From Tricholomella constricta (lineage: Eukaryota > Basidiomycota > Agaricomycetes > Agaricales > Lyophyllaceae): a DNA stretch of 64,000 nt. The position numbers were made by a program, and so were the translations under genes. The stretch lies in the NCBI GenBank assembly GCA_013368375.1, contig JAACJP010000007.1:682001-746000 (forward strand), given 5' to 3'. The notes beneath the pieces are model-generated. The model was not told the DNA's origin, ran no database searches, and saw only the letters and a program-made list of their open reading frames with translations. Shown piece after piece: positions 4,575-51,355 of this stretch. Within the stretch, counting starts at the first letter, position 1, and each line of letters opens with the position of its first letter.

Positions 4575-7500
4575 TTGAAACTACCAATGCGTACTACTCG
4601 TTCGAAACCATCGGGTACATTTCATCAGCTGCCTCTGGGTAGTCGGTCATCAGGCAAACGCAAAAAACCTGATACTCCGCACTCTGCCTCATCGTTAGCT
4701 ACTGCCGGTCTGGAAAATGCGTTGAATGCAGCATTTGGTGCCAACTCTGCACCTCCTGAGAATGCAGCATTTGCGCCAGGGAATTCGGAGACAGCACTCG
4801 AGACTCCTGCTATTCCTGACACATCTGGCAGCACCAATTCCCTTCCACCTGATGCTCAGAGTATTCCTGACGCATCTTCTGCTACCGACACTCCTTCTCA
4901 TCCATGCTCGCCTCCAAATGCGGCTGCGTCTGTGTTGGCCCCTTCCTTGGACCGTCCACGTCCACGTCATTTGAAGACCTACAGATCCTCTGCACTACGC
5001 GACAACGACGAGAATCAGTTCATTTCTAATCGGGTATGGGGATCCGGGTTGAAGGACACGTTTGGATCCATTGATGAGGTCGAGTTACAAGAGCCCAGTT
5101 CTCCGTTGACCCTGATGCTCCCTGCCGAATTGGAGCTTGACGACGAACTCAACAATTATGATATAGATGGCAATGGTGGCGGCGGGGATGTAGATGGTAT
5201 GAGTGGTGGCGACAAGGATAGTGCAGAGCATCAGAATGAGGGTGGCGGAAATGAGGGTGGCGGGAATGAGGGTGACGGGAATGAGGGTGGCGGGAATGAG
5301 GGTGGCAGGGATGATGGTGGTGGAAATGAGAGTGGCGGGGATGATGGTGGCAGGGATGAGGGTGGCAGGGATGAGGATGGCGGGGATGAGAATAGTGGCG
5401 GCAGAGGTCAGGGTAGTGGTGGCGAAGGCAAGGGCACAGGTGGTGGAGATGAGGACTCTGCCAGCGGTGAAAACAATGATGAGGAGGAATGGGGAGGCAT
5501 CGCAGATTCTTCCTCACTGGAGAGCCCCGCGCCGGAGAGTGATCTTAGTGCATCAGACTTTGAGGAGGCGGCAGCATTGCAAACAGCTGCTCTTGCTCGT
5601 GAACGCAAACGCGGACGCGTGACAACCCCCACCATCGAAGAACAGGACCAAGAAGACGAGGAAGCATTCCTGAAGGAGGCAAATATGTCTCCTGAGCGCT
5701 TGACTGCTCAACAGAAAGGCAAGCAGCGGGCTCAGTCTCAGATTGCTCTGCAGGCGCCTGATGACGAGCAGGGAGGCAGGGATAGTATCAGAGAGGGAGA
5801 AGTAGAGGGAGAGGGATGGGACAGGGCAGGAGGGAACAGTGACCGAGGGGAGGGTGATCTCACCTCTGGTCCTCTGCCCAAAGAAGCAGTCGCTGCTGCG
5901 TTGGCGAGTTACCAGGTCTACCGCGACAGCCTGGAAGAGCTTTCTGTCAAGTACAGAAAGTCAGTGCTTGTTTTACAGCGAGCTGTGGGCGAGGACGTGA
6001 AGCGTCCTCGCCGTCTAAATCCTTGGAACACGTTTCAAGCCTGGTACGGCGAGCATGGGAAGACAAAGCGCAGCGATGATGGTACATTTTTCAGAACCTT
6101 TAGGCTTCGCCGTCACTAACACGAATACGCTACAGTCACAGCACGCGACTGGCAGTCTTTTGTCAAAGAGGAGTACAACAAGCACCTCCAAGAACTCGAT
6201 GGCTCGCACGGTGCCGATGCACGGGAAGCACACTTCAAGGAGCAGTTAGACTGGTACAAGGAGCGTCTGTCTGTCTATGTTGAAGGTAAACGGGATACAG
6301 GGAATTTTAAGGCAGTTATGAGCCGGATACTTGAACCGTTCATCAACTTGGTAAGTAAACACCTTGTATTCTCAACATAGTGACGTGTCTGATGACCTAA
6401 AATCAGAGCATTCAAGCCTGGGATCAATACGGCGTCCATGTCTTTGGCTTTGGTGTCGACACGGAGCGAGATCTTCGAGGAGCAAGTGCCAGTGTTGCAT
6501 GGGGTGGTTCACCTGGATACGTAGCAGTACGAAACGAATACAAGACGTCGATCAACTCGCAACTCGGTGACTACGAAGGAATGTTCAAGTACGTCGCATA
6601 TAAATGCCTCCTAATGTTAGCCTAACATAGATAATTTCTAGAAATGCTGAAGTACGCAGTCGCCACGTCGCAGTTGCAAGAAGTCGGTTCCCCGTCAACT
6701 GGGAACAAACCAAAGGGACGGCCTTGAGAGACCACCATCGCCGCCTTTTGGGGGAGATTATGCGAAGTGACATAGGTATGTTGTTACCTCTGTACACACC
6801 ACAATATCCTGACACTGTCTTGACTTCAGGTCATATTATTGGTCACAAACTCTCGGACAGAGAGGCCAACAGTCTCACCATGCAGTGGAAGCACTGGGCC
6901 GACATGGCATATACCCATCAAATGCGCCTCGAAGGCTGGCCCATCGATCTTGTCTCTCCAGGCCTTGATTGCGAGCCAAAGAACTTCGGGAGTAAGCAAC
7001 TGAAGGCCATGATTGATAACCGAGTCAAGTCAACAGAGGACGAGGACTTTGATGAGATTGTGAGGATTGTTTCTTGGGATGATGGTATGTTGTCACATTT
7101 CTGACCGTTAAGATGTAAACTAACGGCAGCCTTCAGAGGAAAAGGCATTGCCTCTGCGTGAGCAAGAGAATGTTCCACTGGTGATCAATACCGATGGAGT
7201 AGTGCTCTTGACGCTCCTGGATTCTAAGAAGTACAAGCGAGAGCTTTCCAAAACTAAGGAGCACCGTTTAGATCCTGAAGACCGTTCAGAATCAGAAGAT
7301 GACACCAGTGGCCACCCTGCTCAGCACTCCCAGACACTAAACAAGCCCCGTGTTGGTCGCCCCCCTGGCGAGAGCCATCAGTCCGAACGTCCGCCACCCC
7401 TGCAAAAGTCACATGCAGAACACCCACATCTTGATCTCCGAGCACCATCCCGCGGTAGACATCACCACTCATGGAATCGGACTGCGAAGTCTGCTCGACG

Positions 7501-9964: not shown

Positions 9965-12824
9965 ATGTTGCGTGCAGTAAAGCGCACACGTCGCAAGAAG
10001 GATGAAGTCCTTCAGGAAAGTTCTCGTTCACATGCCATGGATGTCGAGACAACAGTCAGGCATACCCAGAGGGGTGACATCGTGGAATCCAGGAGTGTCC
10101 CTTTGCGCAAGAGGTCACCGGACCCTGCTACATCTGCCCCTCAGGGTGTGCAAACACATGTCCAACCCTTTGAGCATTCGGACATTCACTCAACAGAGCT
10201 GGATGACACCACTGATGAGGTTGCCTCCAAACGGGCCAAGGTGAATTGTTCTTTGATGTATTGTGTACATGTAACTGAATCAAAGCACAGACACAAGCTG
10301 ATTACCTTCAAGAGTTTGTGAACCATGTTCCAGAGCTGTTGGAGGGGCTCCTTGGGAGAGAGCACATTGAGAATCAAACTCAATGTTCTGATTGTCCCAA
10401 GGCCAACTATGGACGTTGGCGTTGCCGAGATTGTCTCAGTGACAGGATACTCTGCCGGGGTTGCATGCGGACAACTCACAGGGACAATCCTCTCCATCGC
10501 ATTGAGTTCTGGACAGGTCAATACTTCCAGGCAGCTCAGCTGCAGGAGGTCGGTACCTACTTGCTGGTCCCTCACTCCTCCAGGAAAGCACTCTGTGATA
10601 CGCTACAGCTGCAACAGGAGCAGTTGGAGAGATACCAGGTGGAATATGACAATGAAGAACAGAAGAATCACCACACAGAGCAGCGGAACGACCCCGCGGG
10701 TCGACATGTCCACCCCGCGGACGCCGCGGACATGACTGAGCAGACTTCCTATGATGCACAGGATAACAATTATATGGCCCGTTTGAGCCGCGCTTATGGT
10801 CAACAGCCAGAATTTCATCCGATTGCTCAGGCAGGGTCTACTCTGGACACAGTTGAAGTCGAAGTGGACGAGGAAGATGACGATGACACTGGTCTCGATG
10901 ATGACCTTCCGGCGAGAATGCCACGGCACGACACATTCAACAATCGTTATGTGCGCATTGTCCATGTCAATGGAATTCACTACATTCCACTTGTCTTCTG
11001 TTCATGCTGCGGAGTCAGCCAGGTCAATACAGACCTGATGCACAAACGATTGGTGCCTGCTAGCTTCACACGATACAATACGCTCTTCACCACTGCAGTC
11101 CTCGATGATTATCGTCTTGCGAACCTGGAATGCAAGGCATCTGCATTTCAGTATTGGCACAAACTCAGCCGGACTACCGCTGCAGCAACGAGCTCCGCGG
11201 ACATCGACAACTTTTATCGCGAACTCCGCCGGCTCTCGCGTTCATGGAGATGGCTCAAGAAGCTCAAATGGGGTGGATTTGGCAGCAATAACAGAGATCC
11301 AATGCAGACCACTGCAGGGGAGCTCGCCATTTTTTGTCCCACATGTCCGCAGCCAGGTGTGAATCTTCCCACGGGGTGGACTGCGGACCCGAATAAGTGA
11401 GTGCATTTAGTGACGATTGATCATTGCTATTGACATGAGATGCAGAAAAGTATACATGAGGTCTTTTGTGGCAGATGGCAATTTCAAAGCCGATCATGTT
11501 CGCCAAAAGAACAATGCCATGGATGTTTGGCTGTCGGAAGGGTCAGGTATGATGGCTAACCGGGCCAATTATAATGAGTTCCTGAAGGAAGCATTCAATG
11601 TGATGACAGTGAGTCAAGTCGATTACCTCCGCGGTGACGGCCGCGGTGTTCATCAACTCCGCGGTGTTCTGTAATAACGTCCATTTTAGAAAGCCCCTTG
11701 CGAGAATCAGTTCCGCGCTGTTGAGCAGGCAATGCTTGTGTCCAAGGCCTGTGATGTTAAAGGAATTGTAGCCATTGCATGTGCGCGGCATGGCTGTTTT
11801 GCCCCCAACAGCCTGTCGGACCTCCACGCGGGTGAGCAGCAAAAGAATGTGGACTGGGCATTCCTCCAGGCGCTTAAAACAACAAATGTGGAAGACATTG
11901 ACCAGGTGTTATTGATCTATGATATTGCCTGCCAATACATGGTACACTTTCTAAAGCGCATCGGCCACCTACTCCCCCCAGGAATGACTATTGCTCAGGC
12001 CATCGGACTACTCCATGTTCACGGTCACAAAGATGATTGCTTTAACCGCTTTGCAACTTCATTCATTCCAGGCGCTGCTATAGTTGCGGGTGAAATTCTG
12101 GAGAGTTTGTGGGCCGTGTTGAACACTGTGTCACCAATGACCAGAACCGCAACGTTGGCACACCGAGCGGAGATCCTGGACGACCATATGAATGATTCTA
12201 ACTGGAAGAAACTCCTGCAGATGCGTTAGTAAAATTTCATCTATTCCATAACAATAACTGACCATGTCCGCGGCCGCGGAGTAGCGGTCACATTGTGTCG
12301 GACATACGAAAAGGCGACGGAGATGTTGGAGACTGCCCAAGAATATTTCAAAGGAGTTGCCCAGGGAATAAGCCGCACACAAACCGCAATTTGGGAGGCG
12401 GAGATCCAGGAGGCCGAGCGGAGGAGGGTTCATGATGTCAAGGCTATGAACATCCTCAAAGCGCGCACCGCGGACATCGGGCAGCCAGGAGATTCCAATG
12501 GACATGTGCAGCACTCAACAGCTGAAGAGGAGTAGATACAATCAGGCCTTGATCTTGAGGAGCGCCAGTAAGCATTTTATCTCTATTTGGCTTCCGGAGC
12601 TAAACAGTTTCCACCTAGAATTGGCCTTCAAGGCAAAGTCCGCCAACTTGCGCGCGAGCCGCGGGAAGATGTCCGCAAGGCCGTCGAAACTGAAAGGCAA
12701 AGCCTACTACGTGCACAAATTGATGTGTTCACATCAAAACAGCTGAGCATAAACTTCATTCCTTCGGCCTCCGCGGAGGAAGTGCCAGTGAACGTCGAAG
12801 CCTTTGACAACCTAGACGAGAACC
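9965..12824 (+). pseudogene. KDZ1 transposase, 5' part (KDZ family with CxC2 cluster)
   Basis: Exons parallel those of the KDZ2 transposase: 9965-10240, 10291-11396, then about 11446-11608, 11691-12225, 12283-12568 and 12620 onward. The protein has the CxC2-type cluster (CSDCP...WRCRDC...CRGC..THRDNPLH), the DGNF, YDIACQY and GEILESLW motifs expected around a KDZ DDE core, and HxxxDDCFNRF. TAG at 12533-12535 replaces the TGG (Trp) of KDZ2. The last exon is cut by Gypsy-1 after ...AFDNLDEN and continues at 37456. Confidence 0.9.
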
Positions 12825-20153: not shown

Positions 20154-23100
20154 CTACTCAACCAATGCTACATATGAGTGATTTACTTCTTTAAATCGTT
20201 GCTCCGCCAACCAAGCAAGTTCCCTCCACATGGCGGTCTTCCGCCGTGCATATGCTGTCGGGCCCAGTTGTCCAGCAGCCGCGGCCTCCGCACCGCGCTC
20301 TACCCAGATCTGGGCCTGATGAAGGAAATATCGGGTGGTCCAAGTCATTTCATATTGAACAAGAGTGAATTCTTCTGTCCATCGATCCTTTTGTGCCCTT
20401 GCCCTCAAGAAATGAATATGTTGGACTATTGGTATCATGTCAGTAACAGCTCCGCGGAGTTGACACCAAAGACATACACTCCAGCACAGCCTCTGGACTA
20501 TCTGTCGCTTGACCAGGTATTTGCCAAATCCAGGAAAGACTGGTACTTCGGATATCAGTTGAGCCCGGAGTGTTGGGATCCAGTATGGCGGTGCTCGATT
20601 TCACATGCTTCTTGTCAAGAATTTTGTACCTTTCCAGTGTGCCTTCATCCGCACCCAGACGGACAAGCTTTGCTCTGCATTTGTCATACACCCGGCAGAG
20701 GGTGGTGATTGTGTTATTGAGGGTGGCAATGTTACCCCGCGCGCGCGTCACCACACCCTTCCGCGGAGCAACTCGGATGACGTGGGAGTACAAAAATGAT
20801 TTCTCCGCAATTGCATTACGGAGGTTCTGCAGATGGCGCTCCGCTTGAACCTTGCGCAATGCAAGCTCGAGTTTAGCCAGATGTGTCTCAGTTTCCCCAG
20901 CCGCGGATGGCAGGCAAATAGGTGTCTGCTCTGGTGGTAGGGGTCCGTCTGTTGCACTGACAGGCGCAGGACGGGAGCGTGTTTGGGCCGGCGCCGCGGC
21001 ATGGCCGGAGGGTGGCAGGTCCGCGGGGTTCTCGTCTAGGTTGTCAAAGGCTTCGACGTTCCCTGGCACATCCTCCGCGGAGGCCGAAGGAATGAAGTTT
21101 ATGCTCAGCTGTTTTGATGTGAACACATCAATTTGTGCACGTAGGCTTTGTCTTTCAGTTTCGACGGCCTTGCGGACATCTTCCCGCGGCTCGCGTGCAA
21201 GTTGGCGGACTTTGTCTTGAAGGCCAATTCTAGATGGAAACAGTTCAGTTCCGGAAGCCAAATAGAGATAAAATGTCTTACTGGCGCTCCTCAAGATCAA
21301 GGCCTGATTGTATCCACTCCTCTTCAGCTGTTGAGTGCTGCACAGGTCCATTGGAATCTCCCGGCTGCCCGATGTCCGCGGTGCGGGCTTTGAGGATGTC
21401 CATGGCCTTGACATCATGAACCCTCCTCCGCTCGGCCTCCTGGATCTCCGCCTCCCAAGTTGCGGTTTGTCTGCGGCTTATTCCTGAAGCGACACCTCTG
21501 AAATATTCCTGAGCGGTCTCCAACATCTCCGTCGCCTTTTCGTATGTCCGACACAATGTGACCGCTACTCCGCGGCCGCGGACATTGTCAGTTATCGTAA
21601 CGGAATGGATGAAATTTTACTAACGCATCTGCAGGAGTTTCTTCCAGTTAGAATCATTCATATGATCGTCCAGGATCTCCGCTCGGTGTGCCAATGTTGC
21701 GGTTCTGGTCATTGGTGACACAGTGTTCAATACGGCCCACAAACTCTCCAGAATTTCACCCGCAACTATAGCAGCGCCTGGAATGAAAGAAGTTGCAAAG
21801 CGGTTAAAGCAATCATCTTTGTGACCGTGAACATGGAGTAGTCCGATGGCCTGAGCGATAGTCATTCCTGGGGGGAGTAGGTGACCGATGCGCTTTAGAA
21901 AGTGTACCATGTATTGGCAGGCAATATCGTAGATCAACAACACCTCGTCGATTTTTTCCACATTTGTCGTTTTAAGCGCCTGGAGGAATGCCCAGTCCAC
22001 ATTCTTTTGCTGCTCCCCCGCGTGGAGGTCCGACAGGCTGTTGGGGGCAAAACAGCCATGCCGCGCACATGCAATGGCCACAATTCCTTTAACATCACAG
22101 GCCTTGGACACAAGCATTGCCTGCTCAACAGCGCGGAACTGATTCTCGCAAGGGGCTTTCTAAAATGGACGTTAGTAGAGAACGCCGCGGAGGTGATGGA
22201 ACACCGCGGCCTACGCCGCGGAGGTAATCGACTTGACTCACTGTCATCACGTTGAAGGCCTCCTTCAAAAACTCGTTATAATTGGCACGGTTAGCCATCA
22301 TGCCTGACCCTTCCGACAGCCAAACATCCATTGCACTGTTCTTTTGGCGAACATGATCCGCTTTGAAATTGCCATCTGCCACAAAAGACCTCATGTATAC
22401 TTTTCTGCATATAATGTCAATAACAATGATCAATCGTCACCAAATGCACTCACTTATTTGGGTCCGCGGCCCACCCCGCGGGGAGATTCACACCCGGCTG
22501 CGGACATGTGGGGCAAAAAATGGCGAGCTCCCCTGCGGTGGTCTGCATTGGATCTCTGTTATTGCTGCCAAACCCACCCCATTTGAGCTTCTTGAGCCAT
22601 CTCCATGAACGCGAGAGCCGGCGGAGTTCGCAGTAAAAATTGTCGATGTCCGCGGAGCTTGTTGCTGCAGCGGTTGTCCGGCTGAGTTTGTGCCAATACT
22701 GAAATGCAGATGCCTTGCATTCCAGGTTCGCAAGGCGATAATCATCGAGGACTGCAGTGGTGAAGAGCGTATTGTATCGTGTGAAGCTAGCAGGCACCAA
22801 TCGTTTGTGCATCAGGTCTGTATTGACCTGGCTGACTCCGCGGCATGAACAGAAGACAAGTGGAATGTAGTGAATTCCATTGACATGTACAATGCGCACA
22901 TAACGATTGTTGAATGCGTCGTGCCGTGGCATTCTCGCCGGAAGGTCATCATCGAGACCAGTGTCATCGTCATCTTCCTCGTCCACTTCGACTTCAACTG
23001 TGTCCAGAGTAGACCCTGCCTCAGCAATTGGATGAAATTCTGGCTGTAGACCATAAGCACGGCTCAAGCGCGCCATATAACCATTGTCCTCCGCATCATA

Positions 23101-23885
23101 GGAAGGCTGCTCCGTCATGTCCGCGGCGTCCGCGGGATTGGCCTGTCGACCCGCGGGGTCATTTTGCTGCTCTGTGCGGTGGTTCTTCTGTTCTTTATCA
23201 TCGTATTCCACCTGGTAATTCTCCAACTGCTCCTGTTGCAGCTGCAGCGTATCACAGAGTGCTTTCCCGGAGGAGTGAGGGACCAGCAAGTAGGTACCAA
23301 CCTCCTGCAGCTGAGCTGTCTGGAAGTATCGACCTGTCCAGAACTCAATGCGATGGAGAGGATTGTCCCTGTGAGTTGTCCGCATGCAACCCCGGCAGAG
23401 TATCCTGTCACTGAGACAGTCTCGACAACGCCAACGTCCATAGTTGCCCTTGGGACAATCAGAACATTGAGTTTGATTCTCAATGTGCTCTCTCCCAAGT
23501 AGCCCCTTCAACAGCTCTGGAACATGGTTCACAAATTCTTGGAGGTAATCACCTTGTGTCTGTGCTGTGATTCAATTACATGTACACACTACTTCAAAGA
23601 ACAATTCACCTTGCTTTGTTTGGGGGCCACCTCATCAGTGGTGTCATTCAGCTCTGTTGAGTGAATGTCCGAATGTTCAAAGGGTTGGACACGGGCCTGC
23701 ACACCCCGACGGACAGATGTAGCAGGGTCCGGTGACCTATTGCGCAAAGGGACACTCCTGGATTCCACAATGTCACCCCTCCGGGTATGCCTGACTGTTG
23801 TCTCGACATCCATGGCATGTGAGTGAGAACTTTCCTCATAGACTTCATCCTTCTTGCGACGTGTGCGCTTTACTGCACGCAACAT
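20154..23885 (-). CDS. KDZ2 gene A: KDZ transposase with CxC2 cysteine cluster (1129 residues)
   Basis: Exons 23885-23610, 23559-22454, 22404-22242, 22159-21625, 21567-21282, 21229-20478 and 20425-20154; all introns GT-AG and every phase fits. The N-terminus is basic (VKRTRRKK). Exon 2 holds the cysteine cluster CSDCP-x-CRDC-x-CRGC-x-H of the CxC2 type known from KDZ transposases, then the VHVNGIHYIPLVFCSCRG segment. Catalytic-like motifs follow: FVADGNFKADHV (Asp), LIYDIACQYMVHF (Asp) and GEILESLWAVLN (Glu), with the HGHKDDCFNRF motif between. The C-terminal third is helical. KDZ enzymes are inferred RNase-H-fold DDE transposases. A splice choice of 3 nt at the fifth exon (21567 or 21564) is open. 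Confidence 0.93.
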
Positions 23886-26928: not shown

Positions 26929-28894
26929 TTAGGCTGCATGTTTTTTGAAGGGCCTCTCGCCCTGGTCCGCGGCCTTGCGCTTGACGCCTCGAGGACCACT
27001 CTCCGAGTCCTCTGGCGTGCTTGTGGGGCTGGGCGCAGGTGCGCCAGTGGGGCTCCAAGCTGGAGCTTGTGAGGTGGCAGGCGGGGTGGATGGGGGCGGA
27101 GGTGGAGTGATGGTGGCAGACAGTCTGCCAACGTCCGCGGCCTCCGCATGAGGGGGTGAGCTGGGCAGTGGCGGAGGGGCAGAGCTGGGCGGTGGCGGTG
27201 GCGGAGGGGGAGAGGTGGGCGGTGGCGGAGGGGGAGAGGTGGGCGGTGGCGGAGGGAGAGAGATGGGCGGTGGGGGTGGGGGAGAGTCCATGTCCTCATG
27301 AGCAGGAGAGGCCGTGGGGGTGTCCGCGGGGGTGTCCGCGGGGGTGTCCGCGGGGGTGTCCGCGGGGGTGTCCGCGGGGGTGTCCGCGGGGGTGTCCGCG
27401 GGGGTGTCCGCGGGGGTGTCCGCGGGGGTGTCCGCGGGGCCCGCCACGGGGTTCACCTCCTCCACCGCAATCAGCCGCTCATTCAAATTCTTCAACCCCC
27501 TGCGGTGGCGATCCAGCTGCCCAGACCAGTTCCACGACTGGGACTCCAACTCCCGCTCTTGCGCCTCAAGCTCCAAGACCCTCAGATTGAGGGCCTTGTA
27601 CTCCGCGGCCCTTTTTGCATCCTGCTTCCTCAACCGCTTCAGGTTGATCTGCAATCCTGCGACGGCGGTCTGCAGGTCTGCAATCAAGGCGGCGGCGTCC
27701 GCGGTTGTGGGCTGGGCAGCGGGAGTTGCTGCAAAGGGTCAATGATAAGGTCAATGAGATAGAAAAGGGAACTCACTTGAAGGCGCGCCAGCGTCGTCCT
27801 CAATTGGAAAGACGCAGGACTGCTTTGCGAGCCTGCATGGGGTGCAGGCCGCGGCCCTTCCGCCATGCACCCTGCACTCCAATCCCTTTCGGGTGCACCG
27901 TCCGCAGGGGGGGTCATGAAGGCGTCGAGGGGCAGGCGGCGGTGTGTCCTCCCTGGCCAGCTCCTGGAACGATGGCCCCGCCTTGGGAAGGGGGTCCACC
28001 GCGCGGATACGAGGCTGGACTGGAAAAGAAAACTGTCAGTGTAGCAATAGTAAGAAAAGAAATACAACTCACCGGGGTTTACCCCCGCGGACGTTCCGAC
28101 TTCCCAATCCTTACCCTTCTCCTTCCTCCGCCGCTCCCTCTCTGCCTCCTGCACCCTCCGCTCGCCCTCCGCGGCGTTTTCCTTGGTGGCCCTCTTGCGG
28201 GCGGCCTTCTCCGCCTGCGCCTTCTCCTTCGCCCTTTCCGCCCTCGCCCTCTCCTCCTCCTCCAAAATCTTCCTCTCCCTCTCTGCCTCCTTCCTCTCCC
28301 TCTCTGCCTCCTTCCTCTCCCTCTCCGCCTCCCTATCTGCCTCCTTGTCCATCCGCTTTGCCTTCTTCTTGCCCCTCCGCGCCTTCTCCGCCTCCGCCTC
28401 CGCCGCCCTCTTCTTCTCTGCCTCCGCCTCCGCCTCCGCGGCCCTCCTCTTCTCCTCCTCCGCAGCCCTCGCCTTCTCCTTCAGCTCCCTGTCCATCTCA
28501 GCCGCTTTCCTTTTGGCCAAGTCCGCGGCCATTTTCCTTGCCTTCTCCACTGCGGTGCGCCCCGCGGATGCCGGTGCCGGTTGGTGGGCGTCCACCGCTT
28601 TTTGGAGCCCTTCGAAGGCGCTGTTGTCCTCTTTGTCCCGGGCGAGTTTTTGCACCAGTCCCATGGTGGCCCAGAGGAGCGATGACGAGCTGGCCTTAAC
28701 GACATCGGCCTCCGTACTGGCCTTGGCCTGCCTATAAACAATTTTCTGAAAAAATAATTAGTGGGGGATGAAGAATAGTTTGTTGAAAAACATACCGCTC
28801 TGTCATACAATGCCCTAAAGGCGCTCCTATCGCCGATTTGCACTGCCTGGCGGATGTCCGCGTCAATGCTGGTGAGTGCGGTGGTGTCGGACAT
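26929..28894 (-). CDS. KDZ2 gene C: coiled-coil protein with Zn2Cys6-like cluster and PADT repeat (604 residues)
   Basis: Exons 28894-28796, 28745-28073, 28019-27777 and 27728-26929; GT-AG introns and fitting phases. Exon 1 encodes MSDTTALTSIDADIRQAVQIG. Exon 2 is a long Arg/Glu/Ala-rich coiled coil (AERERKEAERERKEAE...). Exon 3 holds two CX2CX6C blocks nine residues apart (CGRCTRKGLEC and CTPCRLAKQSC), the spacing style of fungal Zn2Cys6 binuclear clusters. Exon 4 has a second coiled coil (LIADLQTAVAGLQINLKRLRKQ), ten PADT tetrapeptides, a proline tract and a basic end (GVKRKAADQGERPFKKHAA). Likely nuclear and DNA-binding by motif, possibly acting on the element itself; this is inference. 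No cluster in KDZ1 can be compared because that part is missing. Confidence 0.82.
27318..27440 (-). repeat. 12-bp tandem repeat, ten copies, encoding PADT
   Basis: GTCCGCGGGGGT is repeated ten times with almost no change in gene C. Each unit contains one CCGCGG. The near identity of copies suggests recent slippage or homogenisation. Confidence 0.95.
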
Positions 28895-44112: not shown

Positions 44113-46043
44113 ATCGGGGAGTGACAATACCGGTCGTCGCAACGTTCGACAACGGCGCAATGGTCGGGGCCATGTGCAGTCGAGTGTTTGCAATGGTAAA
44201 GACCCAGCTTAGCGATTGGGGCCCTTCGACATGACGCCTACGCATGGCGGACGGGAAAGTGGTACAGGCAGAGGCAGTGTGGCGCAGCCACATCAAAATC
44301 GACGGTGTCACAGCGGAGGGCGCATTCGAGGTGTTCGACAGCGGAGGCAGCTGGGACTTCCTCTTCGGGAAGCCGCTTATGCTGGCGTTCGACGCCGTAC
44401 ACCACTACCGCCCTGACGAAGTTGAGATCGGGGGGCGGGGCGTCACCACCATACTCCACAACAAGAACGGGGGCCTTAAGGGGGCAAGGCAGGGAGAGGA
44501 AAGGGCGGCAGACCACGCCAGACAAGCGCAAGGGAACCAGAAGGGGGGGCAGTCAGAGACTGTGGGTCAACCCCCCTCGAGGCAAGTCCCACACAGCCCA
44601 AGCACGCAAGGAGACCAGCCTAACCAGACAGAGCCCCAGCACCAGCAGGACGGAGAAGGCGGCGCGCCAGACTCACCCACACACATCAGGCGACGGAAAG
44701 CATGGGTGGAGGACGAGGTCGACGAAGAGGAACGGGAGGCGGCGGCCGACAGCACAGAAAGCATGGAGCAGGAGAGAAACACGGGGGCAAGTGATCAGCC
44801 CCCGGCAAGGCGAGTACCCTCAACCCAAACCAAAGAACCTGAACCCACTGCACAGATCGCCGAAGATCAACACGCTGGCGAACAGGAGGGAGATTGCACA
44901 ACAAAGGGGAGCACGATTCAGGCTGACAAGGTCGCAAGAGGGGGCAACACCACCGCATGGCGAGGCGCCGGCCAGCGAAGGTACCGACGGTTCCACAGCA
45001 GGACAAGAAACATACCGATGGTGCCACGCGCAAGGAAAGGAGGGCGAGCTGCCAACAGCCACTGGAGTTTGCGCAACACATGCAAGACGCGGCGCCGGTG
45101 ATGAACGTGAGTGACGCCGACAATGGCGAGCACGATAACGGGGCCGATATACCGGTGGATGACTTACGCCGAGATCGGGAGGGCATCTTTACGCGCTGAA
45201 CAGACCCGTTCAAGCCGGAACGGGTGGAGGAGATACTACGGAGCATGAAGATCGGCGACGACCGATGCTAACCGCGTGCCTTGATAGCGGAGTACGCCGA
45301 CGTGTTTGCATTGTCGGTCGGGGAGGTACTCACGGTGGAAGGCGCTGTGCATAAACTGAACATACCACCCAATGCTAAGTTCTCCTCGAAAGTACAACAG
45401 AAGCCACTGACGCCACCCCAGCGGCAGTACCTCCACGAGAAGATCGACGAGATGTTGGCGGCGGGCATTATCGAGGCCTGCAGCCCCAACGACGTGAAGT
45501 GTGTGTCGCTGACTACACTCCCGCAGAAAGCACACCAGGGCGCCGGCTTAACGCTTGAGGAGCTCCAGTAACGCGTCAATGAACAATGTATCGCCAATGG
45601 ATTCGATCCACAGTTCCAACTTGCACCACGCAGCGAACCTACGCCAGACGACAGGGAACTGCAGGGAACACCAAAGTGGCGCATATGCCAGAACTTTGGG
45701 GAGGTCAACAAAGTGACCGAGATCGTGCCAATGCCTCAGGGCGATATCCGGATGAAACAACAGAAGCTGAGTTGTCATTGTTGGATTTCGCTCTTCGACT
45801 TTGCTTCCGGGTTCTACGCCGTAGAGATGGCTGAAGAATCCAAACCCTACACGGCGTTCTACGTCGAAGGGAGGGGTTACTTCTGGTACCGCAGAATGCC
45901 TTTCGGCTTGACGGGGGCACCGTCAACGTTTGCGAACGTAACTGCCAATTGCCTGCATGACTTGCTTGTGCAGGAGGTCATCGAATTGTTTGTCGACGAT
46001 GGCGGGATGGCAGCGAACGAGTTTGGGGAGATGATTCGAAAGC
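44113..46043 (+). pseudogene. LTR-A pol, 5' part: protease and first half of RT, several frameshifts
   Basis: At 44120-44480 a protease-like stretch is broken by a frameshift near 44225. VATFDNGAMV then ADGKVVQAEAVWRS...GSWDFLFGKPLM resembles the retropepsin-like domain of this clade, with FDNGA in place of DSGA. A Gln/Glu-rich linker follows. RT parts include VHKLNIPPNAKFSSKVQQKPLTPPQ, the DMLAAGIIEACS region and FASGFYAVEMAEESKPYTAF...YRRMPFGLTGAPSTF, then the active-site-like FVDDGG. Frames change at least three times. The RT is cut at 46043. Confidence 0.82.
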
Positions 46044-46237
46044 TGTAAGGACGCAGGTCCATACTGGTCACCTGTGGTGGCATTGTTTGGCAACGCCTTC
46101 GGCGTTGCCTATATCTATTGTTTATATCTATTATTTTAAGCAGATCTTCGCAACTTCATGTACAACTAGCAGAAAATGACATCTGGTCAAGCTCGGTTGT
46201 AGTGTGAAACGCGAGGTCGTCCTGTAGCATTGCTACA
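46044..46237 (+). repeat. 5' LTR of the hairpin-rich element
   Basis: 194 bp, identical to the 3' copy as far as I can compare. Contains a perfect 9-bp-arm hairpin (46089-46109, loop 3) and ends in a 6-bp-arm hairpin (46223-46237) that includes the terminal CA. Confidence 0.95.
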
Positions 46238-46357
46238 TTTTTTTGAGCTATCCAGCTCTACTGCTATATCCAGCTATATCCCGCTATATCCCGCTATACT
46301 GCTTCTTTTCTTATTCTGGCCAATCAAACCCCTTTTGGCCAACACCGACATCTTGAT

Positions 46358-49090
46358 ATGACATCGAGAACCACCCAGGACCATGCGACACGCGCATGGA
46401 CACACGAGGCCGCGGACACGCGGCCACGTCACTCGTCGGAACCGCAGCTTGCGGCTCCGAGAGATTTTTCGATGCTCGAAGCATCGAAATTGATGCCACG
46501 TCACCTGGCAGAACCGCCGGCGGCGGTTCCTTCGAGCAAACTCGAACCGTTTCTATGGAACGGCACAGGCGAATCTTCGTCGCCTGTGCACGAAGACTGG
46601 ATCGAGCTCGCCCTTTTACGGCGCGAGCTACAGCTCTTTTGGTTGGCTACTAGGATAACCGATGACAGTCAGCGACGCAGGCTCGAAGCCTGCGCTGAAA
46701 ACGATGTATCTGAGTATTTCGGACGAATATACATTGATGTAGGACATACAGAGTACCTACAACGATACATGAACGCGCTACGCGCACGCTATCGCGAATG
46801 GTGCGGTCAAGGAACCGCACCGACTAAAAGCACTACACCTTCCGCTTGGGAGGTAAAAATGGAAGCGTTCTGGGCGACGACGGACGTCCAGAGCCAGTAC
46901 CGGCGTCGGAGGGTGCTAGAGAAAACCGACAACATGTACCGGAAGTATGGGGTAAAATGCATGCACCATACGGCGGTCGGCGATTCGTACGCCGACAAAA
47001 CTATAGGAACACTGCGTGATATCGTGGACCTATACAGGAAGCGGCGTCCGAAGGACGCAAAACTAGGGATATCGCAATCGTGCGATGCAAGTACGATGGT
47101 GCCGCAGGCGCCATCGCCAATAAAGTCGACGAGACCATCAACTGATGGTCTTAAAAACGAACGCTCGGACGGCTTGAGTGCCGCCCCCTTCAAATCGATC
47201 GTGAAGCGATCCGAAAGACGCGAGAGCAATGGTCTCGCATCGGTGAACGTCACATATAGTGGCGGACACGACGACCGCAACTGGCGAGCACCGTCGCCGA
47301 CGCACGAGCAAAGTGGGCGACGGAGGTCAACGCCCAAGCAGGAGGCCTTTCAATCGGGCAACGTAGAGGGTATCGTCGAGCATCGGAGGATGCTCAAGGA
47401 GACACGAACCGAGGAGAACGTCGTATCCGAACGACGTTCTGGTGGAGGGGAGAGGTACCAGAGCAGTAGCCGCCACCCCACAAACGAGAAGATGAAGGAA
47501 ACGTCGCAGAGCGACGTGTTACGATTCATGGGGCCCAGCAAGGGCGCAACAGATGCTGGCAAGAAAGGTGCCAGCGATACAACGTCGGAGGTGTCGAACA
47601 TACGACATTCGGAGGCCGAGACACGTCGGGAAGGCGCAGGGAACAAGCACCGACGGAGTATGGTCCGGACAGACCATGCTACAGATAAGGGCGCGCGGCA
47701 AGGTCGTGCGCATCAAGTCGAACCGCACCGAGAAGGTGTACCGGAGGACAGCAAGCGTCCTCCCACCAAGCCTAGGAACAGGCTTGCATCAGCGCGTTCA
47801 GTAACACGCGCCTACTCGTCATATAGGTACGCTACACCTAGACCCTACAGTGGCGCTATGGCCGCCACATCGGTGTCGGAGAGCGCCAGCGTGCGCCCTC
47901 AACCGGAACGACCACCGGAGCACCCAAGAAGAGGTGCCGTCATCGATGGCGGAGAAGCAACTGCAAACGCATCCCAGATAACGGGGAGGCACACGAGCGG
48001 ACCAAGGAGCTTACCTGGTCTGCAAAACGCTGGGCAGAGCCCAGCAGCAAAACCGAGCACAGCACGTCTAGTTAAAGACGTGCGAGACAAGCATCCGGCA
48101 TTACCGGAGGTGTGGACAAAAGTCCGCAAGGGAGAAGATGGGGGTGGTGAACGCCCATCGAAGAAGACTGAACGCCACGGGACGACGACCGCAAATGTGC
48201 AGACGCCGGCATACCCGGAGGTGGACTTCCACATTGCGTGGTGGATAGCACGACGCATCGACGATGGAAGCGAATGGAACGAGACGTTCCGGGAGCTAAT
48301 GCACGATCGGCCGGAAGACAATGTGCGCCGAGTCTGGAGGTGGGTGAGGTACCACCTCCGGCATCACAGAGAGGAACTCCGTGCGGACACGGGGTTAATG
48401 GGCATCAAGCCTGTTGCGGAGACGGCGTCAAGCGCTGTATCCGATGGTGGATCTAGTGACCGACCCAGTGAAGCGGGAAGGTCAAGATCGAGTTCGCAAA
48501 TTGGACAGGAGCGAACACGTACCCCCGACCATGTCCTAGACTGGGTAGAGGGTAATTCGAGAACCTACTCGCGCAGTATGAGCGCGATTAGGGGCAATTA
48601 CGACATGGTGGTATCGACACCATCGGCAGCTCGGAATGAAATGTCCACCGAGCGATTGGCGTGTATGCGCCAAATTGTTCATCGCACATATGGCGATGAA
48701 CCGGAAGGGGAAGACGACGGGAATGGTGAGCGGTCCGAAGGTCATTCGGAACGCTCAGAAGCATGGCATGTCCGAACATATGAATGTGAGGACGCATGCC
48801 ACGAGTACCAGTACCTCGATGAAGACGGGAAGGAAATTCACGTCTACGAAGTGGAGAGCAATGGGGAAACCAACGCTCTCGAGGCGGAATATGATAGCTA
48901 CCGTGAACGTGGTAGCTATCAAGAGGAGGAGGAGAGTGGCGCTGAGCATAGCGGCTCGGAAGACGCTCGGTCTAACGACGAGCAGGAGAATGGCGCTGCA
49001 CATAGCGGCCCAGAAGACGCTCGTTCGAACGACGAGCAAAGCGACGAAAGCGCTCGTTATGATGATAATGAGTGCACCGACTCCGATTGA
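46358..49090 (+). CDS. Unknown 910-residue protein of the hairpin-rich element
   Basis: The start at 46358 is the first ATG after the LTR in this frame, and the frame is uninterrupted to 49090. An N-terminal region (residues 1-80) precedes a helical stretch (DWIELALLRRELQLFWLATRI, EYLQRYMNALRARYREW, WEVKMEAFWATTDVQSQYRRRRVLEKTDNMYRKYG) that could be a capsid-like gag domain. The middle is Arg/Ser/Glu-rich and disordered. A second ordered patch is VDFHIAWWIARRIDDGSEWNETFRELMHDR...RRVWRWVRYHLRHH. The acidic C-terminus has a two-fold repeat (SGAEHSGSEDARSNDEQ and NGAAHSGPEDARSNDEQ). No zinc knuckle or protease motif seen. A highly divergent gag is possible but unproven. Confidence 0.7.
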   Translation: MTSRTTQDHATRAWTHEAADTRPRHSSEPQLAAPRDFSMLEASKLMPRHLAEPPAAVPSSKLEPFLWNGTGESSSPVHEDWIELALLRRELQLFWLATRITDDSQRRRLEACAENDVSEYFGRIYIDVGHTEYLQRYMNALRARYREWCGQGTAPTKSTTPSAWEVKMEAFWATTDVQSQYRRRRVLEKTDNMYRKYGVKCMHHTAVGDSYADKTIGTLRDIVDLYRKRRPKDAKLGISQSCDASTMVPQAPSPIKSTRPSTDGLKNERSDGLSAAPFKSIVKRSERRESNGLASVNVTYSGGHDDRNWRAPSPTHEQSGRRRSTPKQEAFQSGNVEGIVEHRRMLKETRTEENVVSERRSGGGERYQSSSRHPTNEKMKETSQSDVLRFMGPSKGATDAGKKGASDTTSEVSNIRHSEAETRREGAGNKHRRSMVRTDHATDKGARQGRAHQVEPHREGVPEDSKRPPTKPRNRLASARSVTRAYSSYRYATPRPYSGAMAATSVSESASVRPQPERPPEHPRRGAVIDGGEATANASQITGRHTSGPRSLPGLQNAGQSPAAKPSTARLVKDVRDKHPALPEVWTKVRKGEDGGGERPSKKTERHGTTTANVQTPAYPEVDFHIAWWIARRIDDGSEWNETFRELMHDRPEDNVRRVWRWVRYHLRHHREELRADTGLMGIKPVAETASSAVSDGGSSDRPSEAGRSRSSSQIGQERTRTPDHVLDWVEGNSRTYSRSMSAIRGNYDMVVSTPSAARNEMSTERLACMRQIVHRTYGDEPEGEDDGNGERSEGHSERSEAWHVRTYECEDACHEYQYLDEDGKEIHVYEVESNGETNALEAEYDSYRERGSYQEEEESGAEHSGSEDARSNDEQENGAAHSGPEDARSNDEQSDESARYDDNECTDSD

Positions 49091-49747
49091 GCGTGTTGGG
49101 CTCGTTGTGCCCAACAGTTCCTATCCAGGTCTTTGAGATGCGATATGAGACGCATCAGTCCGGCAGCCGTATCGGTTATGTGTCGACGTTGATAAACGTC
49201 GAGGTGGCAGCCTACGCGACTTTAACCACAGTCGCAGCGATATCCATCGCTGAAATCCTTGTGGCGTATACGTCGGCGCGATAAATAGCGCCTCAGTCTT
49301 CTGCGGTGGTTCAACCAGCCCTGGTCTGGCAGTTGCAATAGCTGTCGACGAGGAGTCGAAGACGGAGCCAAAAAATCGATGAAGCCATAAATCACCGGCT
49401 AACGACTCGATTGGCGACTATCAAACCAACTCAGGCGCGAAAGTCATCGTTGGGCATTAGGTGTCCAACCCTAGCCAGTACGTCCGCGGAACATGGACGC
49501 CAATCTCTCAGAGACTGGAGGAACAAGTCGCGGTCGACAGAATCGACACTACGTTAGGGCCATGACCTAACATTATCATTATTCCATATCGTCGGGGTAC
49601 CAATACCCAGACGCGACAACTGTGGCGCATAAAATATGCGCAATACATTCGACTATTGTTGCGCGTACTGTACGCGCAATATATACGACATTCCCTCGAC
49701 ATCTGCCCGGGTGTAAAGATTGCTGAGTGCAATCTTAAAGGGGGGTA
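49091..49747. other. 3' untranslated part of the hairpin-rich element
   Basis: About 650 bp without a gene but with at least nine perfect inverted repeats, for example 49094-49116 (8-bp arms), 49183-49202 (8), 49625-49641 (7), 49659-49679 (9) and 49716-49736 (8). It ends in the polypurine tract. Confidence 0.8.
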
Positions 49748-49941
49748 TGTAAGGACGCAGGTCCATACTGGTCACCTGTGGTGGCATTGTTTGGCAACGC
49801 CTTCGGCGTTGCCTATATCTATTGTTTATATCTATTATTTTAAGCAGATCTTCGCAACTTCATGTACAACTAGCAGAAAATGACATCTGGTCAAGCTCGG
49901 TTGTAGTGTGAAACGCGAGGTCGTCCTGTAGCATTGCTACA
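49748..49941 (+). repeat. 3' LTR of the hairpin-rich element
   Basis: Same 194 bp as 46044-46237. The AAAGC duplication follows at 49942. Confidence 0.95.
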
Positions 49942-51355
49942 AAAGCTGACGCTGCTGTTCTCCAGGGCCCGCGAAAAGAAGTTGTCTATTTCGGCGGCGA
50001 AGTCGGAATTCTTTGTCTCAACAGGCATATTCGCAGGGGCCTCCGTCAGGCAGGCCGGCGTACAGCCCGACCCAACCAAGCTCACAGCGATCGTCAACTG
50101 GAAGACGCCTGAGGACGCCTTGAACCTAGCGGCATTCTTGGGTTTAACGGGCTGGTTTCGCAACCTCATCAAGGGGTATGCGCTGGTAGAGAAGCCTCTG
50201 CGAGGCTTGTTGCGAGATGTGGAGATGCAACCGGGGTGCTCGAAGACGGTTTACCGACGGACGATGTGCGGTTGGACCTTGGCTGACAAGTGGACAGCAG
50301 AACACAATAGGGCTTTCATAGAGCTCAAGCGACTGCTAACATCGGAACCCATCCTGCGCGCGCCGAAATGGGACGGCACACATTTTATAATAACAAGCGA
50401 TGGCTGCCAGGACGCTTTCGGTGCCGTGCTCGCGCAGCGGTTTACAACGGAATTGAAAGGGGGGAAGACAGTAACGAAGTTGCACCCACTAGGCTTCGCG
50501 TCCAAACGCACCTCGCGGGCAGAAGGGAAGTACAAACCCTTCCTACTCGAGTTTGCAGCGCTGAAATTCGCGCTCGATAAGTTTTCGGACATTGTGTGGA
50601 GGTTTCCAGTGGAAGTGGTAACAGACTGCCAGGCGCTACGCGATGTGCTCACTAACGACAAGCTGAGCGCGACGCACGCACGATGGCACGACGGGATCCT
50701 CGCCCATCAAATCGTGGATGTACGACATGTACCGGGGCGCACCAACGTCGTAGCAGATGGGCTCAGCAGGGCGATGGAGGGCCAACCGAATGAGCCGGGG
50801 GATGGCAGCGACTGGGCAGTGAGTGAAGACTGGGAGGCGGCAACAGGACTCACGCACGACATATTCCGAGTAGCGGAGTATTCGGACATAGACGCGCTAC
50901 GCCACCGTTTCGCAAATGAACCCATATTCCTAGAGGTGATCGACTCGCTGCACGAGCTGGATTCAGGCAAGTCGACGAAGGAAAGGAGGAAAGCGAAGCA
51001 CAGAGCGATGGATTACATGGTCGAGGGGGACGGGCTGTACAAGGTCGGTGGCGGGCCGCGCGCAAGGGCATGAGCAAGGGTGGAATGCATCACACGCGGG
51101 GAAGCAATCAAGATGGCACGGAAGGAGCATCGCAAAGGGGGGCACTGGGGACGGGACACAATCAAACGCAGGCTCATGGACACGGTTTGGAGCCCGGGGC
51201 TCGACGCATCGATCATGGAAGGGATCAAGGATTGCGGGAAATGCAAGAATTTTGGTGGTACGCACCTGCATTCACTCTTGAACCCGATGACGCGCAGGCA
51301 TCCCTTCGAGCTGCTGGTCGGCGACTATCTGTCGTTGCCGACGGGCATGGGTGGG
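49942..51355 (+). pseudogene. LTR-A pol, middle: end of RT, RNase H, integrase zinc finger
   Basis: Continues RT after the insertion (KSEFFVSTGIFAGASVRQAGVQPDP, LAAFLGLTGWFRNLIKGYA). Then RNase H: HFIITSDGCQDAFGAVLAQ, FLLEFAALKFALDKFSD and VVTDCQALRDVL, followed by HVPGRTNVVADGLSRA. The frame ends at 51073. After a shift the HHCC-like integrase domain follows (EHRKGGHWGRDTIKRRLMDTVW...CGKCK) and the first integrase Asp (VGDYLSLP). Gypsy-3 cuts it at 51355. Confidence 0.85.

Follow-up and report, generated by a model that had tools for sequence, protein, structure and literature searches.

Chains of short perfect hairpins along a non-autonomous LTR retrotransposon and its Ty3/Gypsy relative in Tricholomella constricta

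RNA structure spanning whole genomes is a known feature of RNA viruses and phages. The nearest type of satellite to the element described here we take to be TR-GAG and similar elements, non-autonomous LTR satellites with one protein. For yeast Ty3, the RNA is reported to be a mosaic in which some regions are stable and others dynamic, rather than a hairpin chain (PMC11381356). For Qbeta-replicated RNAs, a rule of 'fewer unpaired GC' is proposed in the section of the work drawn on here (PMC6913131). Among open-licence PMC papers we found no prior report of a perfect-hairpin chain in a retroelement, in line with a first-pass annotation of this DNA, which knew of no described family like it.

We analysed a window of 64,000 nt from T. 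constricta (contig JAACJP010000007.1, positions 682,001–746,000). It contains a recent, non-autonomous LTR retrotransposon of 3,898 bp (46044–49941). Dozens of copies of F1, an autonomous Ty3/Gypsy relative ∼11 kb long, are likewise present in the host genome; F1 has a sister family, F2. Judging by sequence comparison, we infer that the window element is a satellite of F1, mobilised in trans by it. Ten satellite copies have the entire ORF open. An assembly accident was rejected, as there are many copies at different places. The parts of the window element are as follows.

46039–46043, no strand: left copy of the target-site duplication (AAAGC); the same five bases lie at 49942–49946, directly flanking the LTRs
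46044–46237, plus strand: 5′ LTR, 194 bp, TG...CA, identical to 49748–49941
46089–46109, plus strand: LTR hairpin (arm 9, loop 3); satellite, F1 and F2 each have a different paired stem here
46089–49941, no strand: hairpin chain, 45 perfect hairpins, arm 6–11, loop 3–8, from an inverted-repeat count, a codon-shuffle control and comparison with other copies
46223–46237, plus strand: hairpin ending the LTR (arm 6, loop 3); F1 retains the stem with altered letters
46238–46258, plus strand: T-run and small hairpin right after the 5′ LTR, at the primer-binding-site position, common to F1 and F2
46358–49090, plus strand: single ORF, 910 aa, with no Pfam match and no protein relative at E ≤ 0.001 among 7,992 scored candidates
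46853–47149, plus strand: ORF stretch related to F1 Gag in its N-terminal part, with 36 identities over 100 aligned positions
49737–49747, plus strand: polypurine tract adjoining the 3′ LTR; its context recurs in F1
49748–49941, plus strand: 3′ LTR, 194 bp, identical to the 5′ LTR
49942–49946, no strand: right copy of the target-site duplication (AAAGC), matching 46039–46043

The satellite and F1 have their LTR-end, post-LTR and polypurine-tract signals in common. As raw pattern matches, their post-LTR pattern occurred 152 times in the genome and the pattern for the junction of polypurine tract and 3′ LTR 137 times, compared with no match for the reversed-pattern control in either case. The T-run and hairpin at 46238–46258 lack the TGG start typical of a tRNA-end complement, and no TGG-type tRNA primer site was seen in F1. 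The LTR hairpin at 46089–46109 comprises 9, 9 and 8 pairs in the satellite, F1 and F2, with a TTC-type loop in each. No Pfam match was obtained for the window ORF, hence neither a reverse transcriptase or integrase nor a recognisable Gag capsid domain was found. Queried with its first Met left out, the protein had no relative at E ≤ 0.001 among 7,992 scored candidates from a database of 5.8 billion proteins. At Rfam's gathering threshold, the whole 64,000-nt window gave no match to the hammerhead ribozyme, the mark of retrozymes, or to any other RNA family. F1 has LTRs, a polypurine tract, a gag with a CCHC knuckle, a Tf2-1-like SH3 domain and, after pol, a third ORF of ∼1,000 codons; its copy L033 encodes reverse transcriptase, RNase H and integrase in Gypsy order, and a candidate chromodomain at the end of its Pol scored 19.5 bits, under the Pfam cut-off of 25.1. 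A protein relative of ORF3, the third ORF, is listed for Lyophyllum shimeji at 52% identity. Pattern searches for relatives in viral contigs gave 2 matches for the F1 reverse transcriptase and 20 for the ORF3 alignment, none of which was confirmed.

Globally, the window element held 45 hairpins (arm ≥6, loop 3–10), compared with a mean of 6.06 and a maximum of 16 in 50 dinucleotide shuffles. For arms of at least 7, 8 and 9 bp, the counts were 28, 17 and 8, against shuffle means of 1.7 (maximum 6), 0.44 (maximum 3) and 0.1 (maximum 1). The ORF contained 38 hairpins (loop 3–12) compared with 6.3 in 20 codon shuffles that preserved both the protein and the codon set; since same-protein shuffling abolished the excess, the hairpins depend on codon choice. 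The first-pass annotation had listed 34 hairpins, in coding and noncoding parts alike, and had judged their density far above a rough chance estimate and, by eye, unequalled in neighbouring elements. All 34 are present where it placed them, the one at 46467–46489 merely splitting 10/3 instead of 9/5, and its judgement on density was borne out by the shuffles. Counting along the element likewise placed hairpins in both coding and noncoding parts, and three neighbouring Gypsy stretches had 0.9, 1.1 and 2.5 hairpins per kb versus 11.5 for the element. The density stops at the LTRs, with 3 per kb before and 2 after. In the four 1-kb windows with the element we counted 11, 13, 10 and 11 hairpins (arm ≥6), or 9, 7, 5 and 7 with arms of at least 7 bp; the remaining 60 windows had 0–10 and 0–4, respectively. 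The non-element maximum of 10 belongs to a repeat-rich stretch (27001–28000).

Arms were mostly 6–9 bp long. The inverted-repeat excess was found at loops of ∼3–12 nt, being smaller at 0–2 nt, strong from 3–4 nt and vanished by ∼17–20 nt. Long-range folding was rejected, because inverted repeats at 21–120 nt were at background. F1a showed a slight excess tail at loops of 13–16 nt. Hairpins were spread as in random placement in the satellite, F1a and F2, with no even spacing; in F1b there was a weak hint of it (0.074 of random placements equally even). A test for codon-phase preference was uninformative (p = 0.33). Between 0.45 and 0.51 of all 21-nt windows were free of stem bases and, with about half of such windows lacking one, the chain is an incomplete shield.

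The chain proved real in the satellite, as the first-pass annotation had it, but not satellite-only, being common to the multi-copy autonomous F1. Two F1 copies, followed from LTR to LTR in overlapping 1-kb windows, had 7–17 hairpins per kb, and only 0–2 per kb beyond their 3′ LTRs. In the flanks counted for four satellite copies, L007 had 8 hairpins in 1.2 kb of 5′ flank, and L007 and L010 each had 4 within ∼0.6 kb of 3′ flank. F2 had far fewer hairpins than F1. At the places of F1 stems, the F2 sequence paired at ∼0.50–0.51 in pol and 0.38–0.41 in gag (slid controls ∼0.2–0.3), which by our reckoning would be no more than identities of 66% and 57% pass on by inheritance. Since F2 has far fewer hairpins and keeps F1 stems no better than inherited identity gives, the chain is not required throughout the lineage.

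Where two copies had stems in common, the number still intact in a third exceeded the neutral mean in every comparison, nine in the satellite and twelve in F1 gag; one example is 13 intact stems versus 3.1 expected neutrally, a value that none of 300 simulations reached. In five of the nine satellite tests, over 5% of simulations equalled the observed value, and four of the twelve F1 gag tests were likewise weak. Stem retention is clear in F1 gag and moderate in the satellite. Third codon positions of F1 gag changed less in stems in all seven comparisons, with p < 0.05 in five (for example 0.132 in stems versus 0.293 elsewhere, p = 5e-5); in the satellite they did so in six of seven, significantly in none. 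Where both sides of a pair had changed, Watson–Crick pairing was regained in 21 of 25 cells in three young satellite lineages and in 24 of 35 in F1 gag (slid controls 0.06–0.31). Stems were thus conserved with compensatory changes in further genomic copies. The derived rate in the three satellite subfamilies hardly differed between all stem columns, newly gained stems included (52 of 2,231), and columns elsewhere (181 of 6,669). Loops varied across copies while stems stayed, and no common loop motif was apparent by eye. Among the six satellite representatives, L012, L013 and L015 carried stop codons, as did both extra F1 gag copies (L041 and L042), so change in these is partly decay.

Folding of 200-nt windows gave mean z-scores of −4.06 for the satellite (19 windows) and −3.06 for the first 6 kb of F1a (30 windows), where phage MS2 scored −4.90 and a neighbouring Gypsy −0.53. 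The antisense strands scored −2.94 in the satellite and −3.21 in F1. Perfect 8-bp stems were enriched 46–83-fold and one-mismatch stems 2.5–10-fold. Among 8-bp stems with one mismatch, G·U and A·C were enriched 8.5- and 6.5-fold in satellite A, 7.3- and 9.7-fold in F1a and 9.0- and 8.8-fold in MS2, versus 3.9- and 0.8-fold in rRNA (only 7 and 2 stems). This near equality is not clearly that of an RNA constraint on the sense strand only. We dropped it as proof against any RNA role, because MS2, a true RNA genome, shows the same. Strand symmetry appears less clean in the satellite. At 6–7 bp, satellite A favoured G·U over A·C (2.4- versus 1.2-fold and 5.4- versus 3.1-fold), whereas F1 had no G·U tilt at any length tested. 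Derived changes within satellite stems went 28 to 15 towards the G·U-making side, compared with 68 to 59 outside stems. Loop G+C was 0.410 in F1a versus 0.519 in shuffles (s.d. 0.036); satellite loops (0.462 versus 0.515, s.d. 0.058) were not clearly GC-poor.

Selection for base pairing of some kind quite probably maintains the hairpins in both the satellite and F1, given what the copies retain and restore. Chance, base composition or codon usage can practically be dismissed as the source, being refuted by the dinucleotide and codon shuffles, the neighbouring elements and the sequence past the F1 3′ LTRs. The first-pass annotation had proposed either selection or a copying mechanism, and only its former half fared well. 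If reverse transcriptase or a nascent cDNA folding back copied arm onto arm, the hairpins would be functionless by-products; such a DNA-level process is naturally strand-symmetric, would account for perfect 8-bp stems far exceeding one-mismatch ones, and fits the hairpin richness of F1 and the satellite, which probably use the same enzyme, as opposed to the sequence beyond the F1 3′ LTRs. Derived changes at hairpin gains, however, fell on both arms (18 on one, 16 on the other), and nine of ten multi-change gains touched both. Mismatches also persisted through the young satellite subfamilies, mismatched pairs numbering 901 versus 104 compensated ones, and the slower third positions in F1 gag stems are unexpected from unbiased arm-to-arm conversion. 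A mutational origin is therefore unlikely, and one-shot hairpin-templated copying as the main cause was rejected because of the two-armed gains and those third positions.

The annotation's other suggestions, RNA packaging and protection of the transcript, would confine the role to the sense transcript, through dispersed packaging signals for a Gag common to F1 and the satellite or through RNA compaction or stability. Hairpin densities are similar in the two elements although their proteins have just ∼100 residues at 36% identity in common, so that form, not sequence, seems important; the folding scores, set against those of MS2 and the neighbouring Gypsy, the better folding of the satellite sense strand, the G·U preference of 6–7-bp stems in satellite A and the persistence of stems around varying loops all agree with such a role. 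A sense-only constraint should nevertheless tolerate G·U above A·C as rRNA does, and this was clear in none of four elements at 8 bp. With G·U not clearly preferred, a function in the transcript only is weakened; F1 also folds about equally well in antisense and has no G·U tilt, and packaging signals with a common loop motif were not apparent by eye. We consider this role rather doubtful. Still less probable is a role in double-stranded DNA, in which small cruciforms or inverted repeats of the integrated copy would serve chromatin, replication or recombination: the repeats are perfectly Watson–Crick and nearly strand-symmetric, as it would have them, but arms of 6–9 bp are short for cruciforms, the loop-size profile is the signature of fold-back hairpins, and local DNA sites poorly explain placement throughout the codons.

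Our own, tentative reading of the purpose, the likeliest of those considered, is that strands of both polarities are kept self-folded and so resist duplex formation and silencing. Each local hairpin would keep single strands of the element folded back, the genomic RNA as well as antisense RNA and/or minus-strand cDNA, and strands in this state would anneal poorly with complementary ones. Less annealing would mean less dsRNA and hence less RNA silencing, or fewer dead-end duplexes during copying. It is conceivable, and we put this more tentatively still, that an LTR retrotransposon lineage has turned its whole genome into a hairpin chain through synonymous codons, guarding both strands from annealing and silencing, and that its satellite, probably using the lineage's machinery, had to evolve that same chain within mostly unrelated sequence.

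That a single genome contains hairpin-rich F1 and satellite alongside a weaker F2 and Gypsies poor in hairpins offers a natural experiment on the structure's role. As F1 gag shows, synonymous sites in a transposon gene can be clearly constrained, and such constraint would distort dN/dS values and dates derived from silent sites.

As to known systems, F1 resembles chromovirus-type Ty3/Gypsy elements in its LTRs, polypurine tract, CCHC gag, reverse transcriptase, RNase H, integrase and Tf2-1-like SH3 domain, but differs in being hairpin-dense throughout, in its extra ORF of ∼1,000 codons and in that no TGG-type primer site was seen. The window element is like the TR-GAG type in having LTRs, a polypurine tract, one ORF and no reverse transcriptase that we found, and in probably being mobilised in trans; unlike that type, it has no recognised Gag domain, ∼100 residues resembling the N-terminal part of F1 Gag. 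With some RNA viruses that have genome-scale ordered RNA structure (GORS), so far as the portion of that literature considered here describes them, the satellite and F1 share a coding-wide folding excess over shuffles, here dependent on codon choice; they differ in being retroelements and in their strictly local perfect hairpins with no clear strand preference. Like MS2, the one phage genome compared, they have many local stems and G·U about equal to A·C. In MS2, however, 8-bp stems with one G·U or A·C (9-fold) were enriched at least as much as perfect ones (5.9-fold), versus 46–83-fold for perfect stems in the satellite and F1. The GC-poor loops of F1 agree with the 'fewer unpaired GC' rule as set out for Qbeta-replicated RNAs in the section cited (PMC6913131), and the duplex avoidance that we propose as the purpose would rest on reasoning already put forward for the RNAs that phage Qbeta replicase copies.

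The LTR element at 46044–49941 (3,898 bp; hereafter, with its genomic copies, the satellite) contains 45 perfect hairpins with arms of at least 6 bp and loops of 3–10 nt, compared with a mean of 6.06 and a maximum of 16 in 50 dinucleotide shuffles; with arms of at least 7 bp, there are 28 versus 1.7. All 34 hairpins in the first-pass annotation were recovered at identical coordinates, and the higher density it had noted relative to neighbouring elements was confirmed (11.5 per kb versus 0.9–2.5 per kb in three adjacent Gypsy stretches). Codon shuffling that kept the protein and the codon set reduced the hairpins in the satellite ORF from 38 to 6.3, near background, and those in F1a, a copy of a related ∼11-kb Ty3/Gypsy family (F1) of the same genome, from 44 to 7.2 (gag) and from 49 to 8.3 (pol). 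The inverted-repeat excess spans loops of 3–12 nt, with a peak up to about 8 nt; it is weaker at 0–2 nt, has a slight tail at 13–16 nt in F1a and is at background level at 21–120 nt. Arm lengths fall steadily from 6 to 11 bp, plus one of 12 bp, and hairpin centres are spaced much as in random placement. Folding z-scores per 200 nt (sense/antisense) were −4.06/−2.94 for the satellite, −3.06/−3.21 for the first 6 kb of F1a, −2.56/−2.00 for the first 6 kb of the sister family F2 and −4.90/−3.38 for the RNA phage MS2, versus −0.53/−0.28 for neighbouring Gypsy sequence.

The window element lies inside another Gypsy element, flanked by matches to RT and to RNase H on opposite sides, and has the following parts:
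LTRs: 194 bp each, an identical pair with ends TG...CA
Target duplication: 5 bp, AAAGC
Polypurine tract (PPT): upstream of the 3′ LTR
ORF: a single frame of 910 codons
The ORF had no Pfam match, and none of the 7,992 candidates scored, drawn from 5.8 billion proteins, was related to it at E ≤ 0.001. Since neither RT nor integrase was found in it, the element is a non-autonomous LTR retrotransposon. A T-run plus a small hairpin follows the 5′ LTR at 46238–46258 and at the same place in F1 and F2 copies (L033, L034, L035); the letters of this hairpin vary between families, and the region does not start with TGG. Elsewhere in the window, two nearly identical 373-codon ORFs lie in opposite orientation (10279–11400, plus strand; 22450–23571, minus strand), possibly the KDZ-type elements mentioned in the first-pass annotation.

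In the host genome (44 Mb, 118 contigs), the ORF has at least 58 matches (50 of 128 candidates scored), copy counts being lower bounds. At least 10 places match it whole and without internal stop (78–100% protein identity), and one further copy consists of two adjoining matched pieces (97–99% identity). DNA identity among 14 aligned copies is 76–99.8%, the lowest values involving L005 and L012, for which at least one end was not anchored to an LTR. These 14 copies hold 25–46 hairpins each (arm ≥6, loop 3–10), with the fewest in L015, which carries a stop codon. The flanks of four copies contain 2, 3, 8 and 3 hairpins on the 5′ side (1,180 bp each) and 1, 1, 4 and 4 on the 3′ side (∼640 bp each); the richer flanks, at L007 (8 before, 4 after) and L010 (4 after), may lie in other hairpin-rich sequence. 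Within an old copy, an antisense F1-type LTR hairpin (L013:4147–4170, minus strand) suggests a nested insertion. Short G-rich repeat arrays adjoin two copies (L003:1–582; L008:74–254, 836–1007 and 5096–5721) and may hint at a target preference.

Eighteen weak ORF matches (33–38% identity, within residues ∼162–256) led to the gag ORFs of F1, which comprises:
LTRs: roughly 220 bp
gag: an open frame of 1,041 codons with a CCHC knuckle
pol: 1,299 codons with RT, RNase H, integrase and a Tf2-1-like SH3
Third ORF: L033:8110–9900 and L036:2–1306, overlapping pieces, ∼1,000 codons, after pol
A chromodomain match in pol scored below the cut-off. The third ORF, which had no Pfam match, occupies the position where env would lie; its C-terminal part (435 aa searched) gave five hits, including Lyophyllum shimeji (52% identity) and Psilocybe cubensis (32%). 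F1 RT was scored at 78 places (of 910 candidates), 65 of them 91–100% identical and 13, assigned to F2, 78–79% identical. The two F1 copies examined (L033/L036 and L035/L038, ∼11 kb each) hold 156 and 157 hairpins, versus about 20 and 22 in shuffles, with a density of 7–17 per kb inside the element (arm ≥6, overlapping 1-kb windows) and 0–2 per kb beyond the 3′ LTR. In the one F2 copy examined, 9.7 kb of L034 contain 47 hairpins (loop 3–12), versus 16.0 in shuffles. This is about one third of the F1 density, and the stems are not clearly common to both families, despite the RT identity of 78–79%, so the chain was strengthened or lost within one lineage. Patterns for the post-LTR and PPT–LTR signals common to the satellite, F1 and F2 matched 152 and 137 places in the genome, respectively, and none when reversed. 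As both signals are shared by F1 and the satellite, whose PPT–LTR junction is closer to that of F1 than to that of F2, we infer that F1 may mobilise the satellite in trans.

Comparison of copies showed that the stems are held, but not rigidly. For stems perfect in one copy and intact in a second, we counted those intact in a third, the neutral model being a random redistribution of the derived changes specific to that third copy. Retention exceeded the neutral mean in 9/9 satellite comparisons (12, 0, 94, 162, 10, 28, 45, 2 and 79 of 500 simulations reached the observed value) and in 12/12 comparisons of F1 gag (0, 126, 7, 84, 1, 0, 17, 93, 0, 0, 4 and 2 of 300), the comparisons having copies in common and not being independent. 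Third codon positions changed less in stems in 7/7 F1 gag comparisons (p < 0.05 in five) and in 6/7 satellite comparisons (none significant). Where both sides of a pair differed, Watson–Crick pairing was mostly restored, as expected of compensatory change: in the satellite in 21/25 cells (three young lineages) and 109/186 (six lineages), in F1 gag in 24/35 and pol in 2/2, and in the ORF3 part in 8/12 and the 3′ part in 13/17, against 0.06–0.31 in slid controls (cells count every copy pair in both directions). One LTR hairpin, with a TTC-type loop, has a different paired stem in each of the satellite, F1 and F2. It is from retention, third-position constraint, re-pairing and this hairpin that we conclude that stems are held. 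Across six satellite lineages, both sides had changed with pairing kept in 104 pairs, versus 901 mismatched; in three subfamilies, derived changes affected 52/2,231 stem columns, newly gained stems included, versus 181/6,669 elsewhere.

A mutational origin of the hairpins remains a rival to selection. If one arm were copied onto the other in a single event, the changes would be expected to cluster in one arm. By comparison with the other two subfamilies and three older copies, 17 hairpins arose in single young subfamilies; 10 required at least two derived changes, and both arms had changed in 9 of these, which argues against such copying and against the hairpin-templated synthesis suggested in the first-pass annotation. 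For 8-bp stems with one mismatch, G·U and A·C enrichments were similar in satellite A (8.5× and 6.5×), satellite C (6.2× and 5.3×), F1a (7.3× and 9.7×) and the second F1 copy, F1b (5.4× and 5.9×); G·U was preferred in the rRNA control (3.9× versus 0.8×; 7 and 2 stems) but not in MS2 (9.0× versus 8.8×). At 6–7 bp, G·U was favoured over A·C in satellite A (2.4× versus 1.2× and 5.4× versus 3.1×), hardly in satellite C and not in F1. In satellite stems, derived changes leaned towards those that create G·U (28 versus 15), compared with 68 versus 59 elsewhere. Perfect 8-bp stems were enriched 46–83× in the satellite and F1, versus 5.9× in MS2. The near-equal G·U and A·C values at 8 bp and this excess of perfect stems show that the constraint has no strand preference in F1 and a mild one at most in the satellite, and that it is unusually strict on perfect pairing.

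Our preferred reading is that selection favours local folding of each of the two complementary strands on itself, so that they would anneal more slowly to complementary RNA or cDNA. It fits both the missing strand preference and the low GC content of F1 loops (F1a, 0.410 versus 0.519 in shuffles, sd 0.036; F1b, 0.423 versus 0.501, sd 0.039); satellite loops, at 0.462 versus 0.515 (sd 0.058), are within about one sd. About half of the 21-nt windows lack any stem, which counts against it, and packaging of the sense RNA only and a role of the hairpins in double-stranded DNA both remain as rivals. One study reports, for RNAs copied by Qβ replicase, that strong intramolecular structure and few unpaired G and C lessen double-strand formation (PMC6913131).

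Searches covering open-licence PMC papers turned up no retroelement described as a hairpin chain. The nearest known likenesses are GORS in RNA viruses, the mosaic RNA structure of Ty3 (PMC11381356) and RNA phages.
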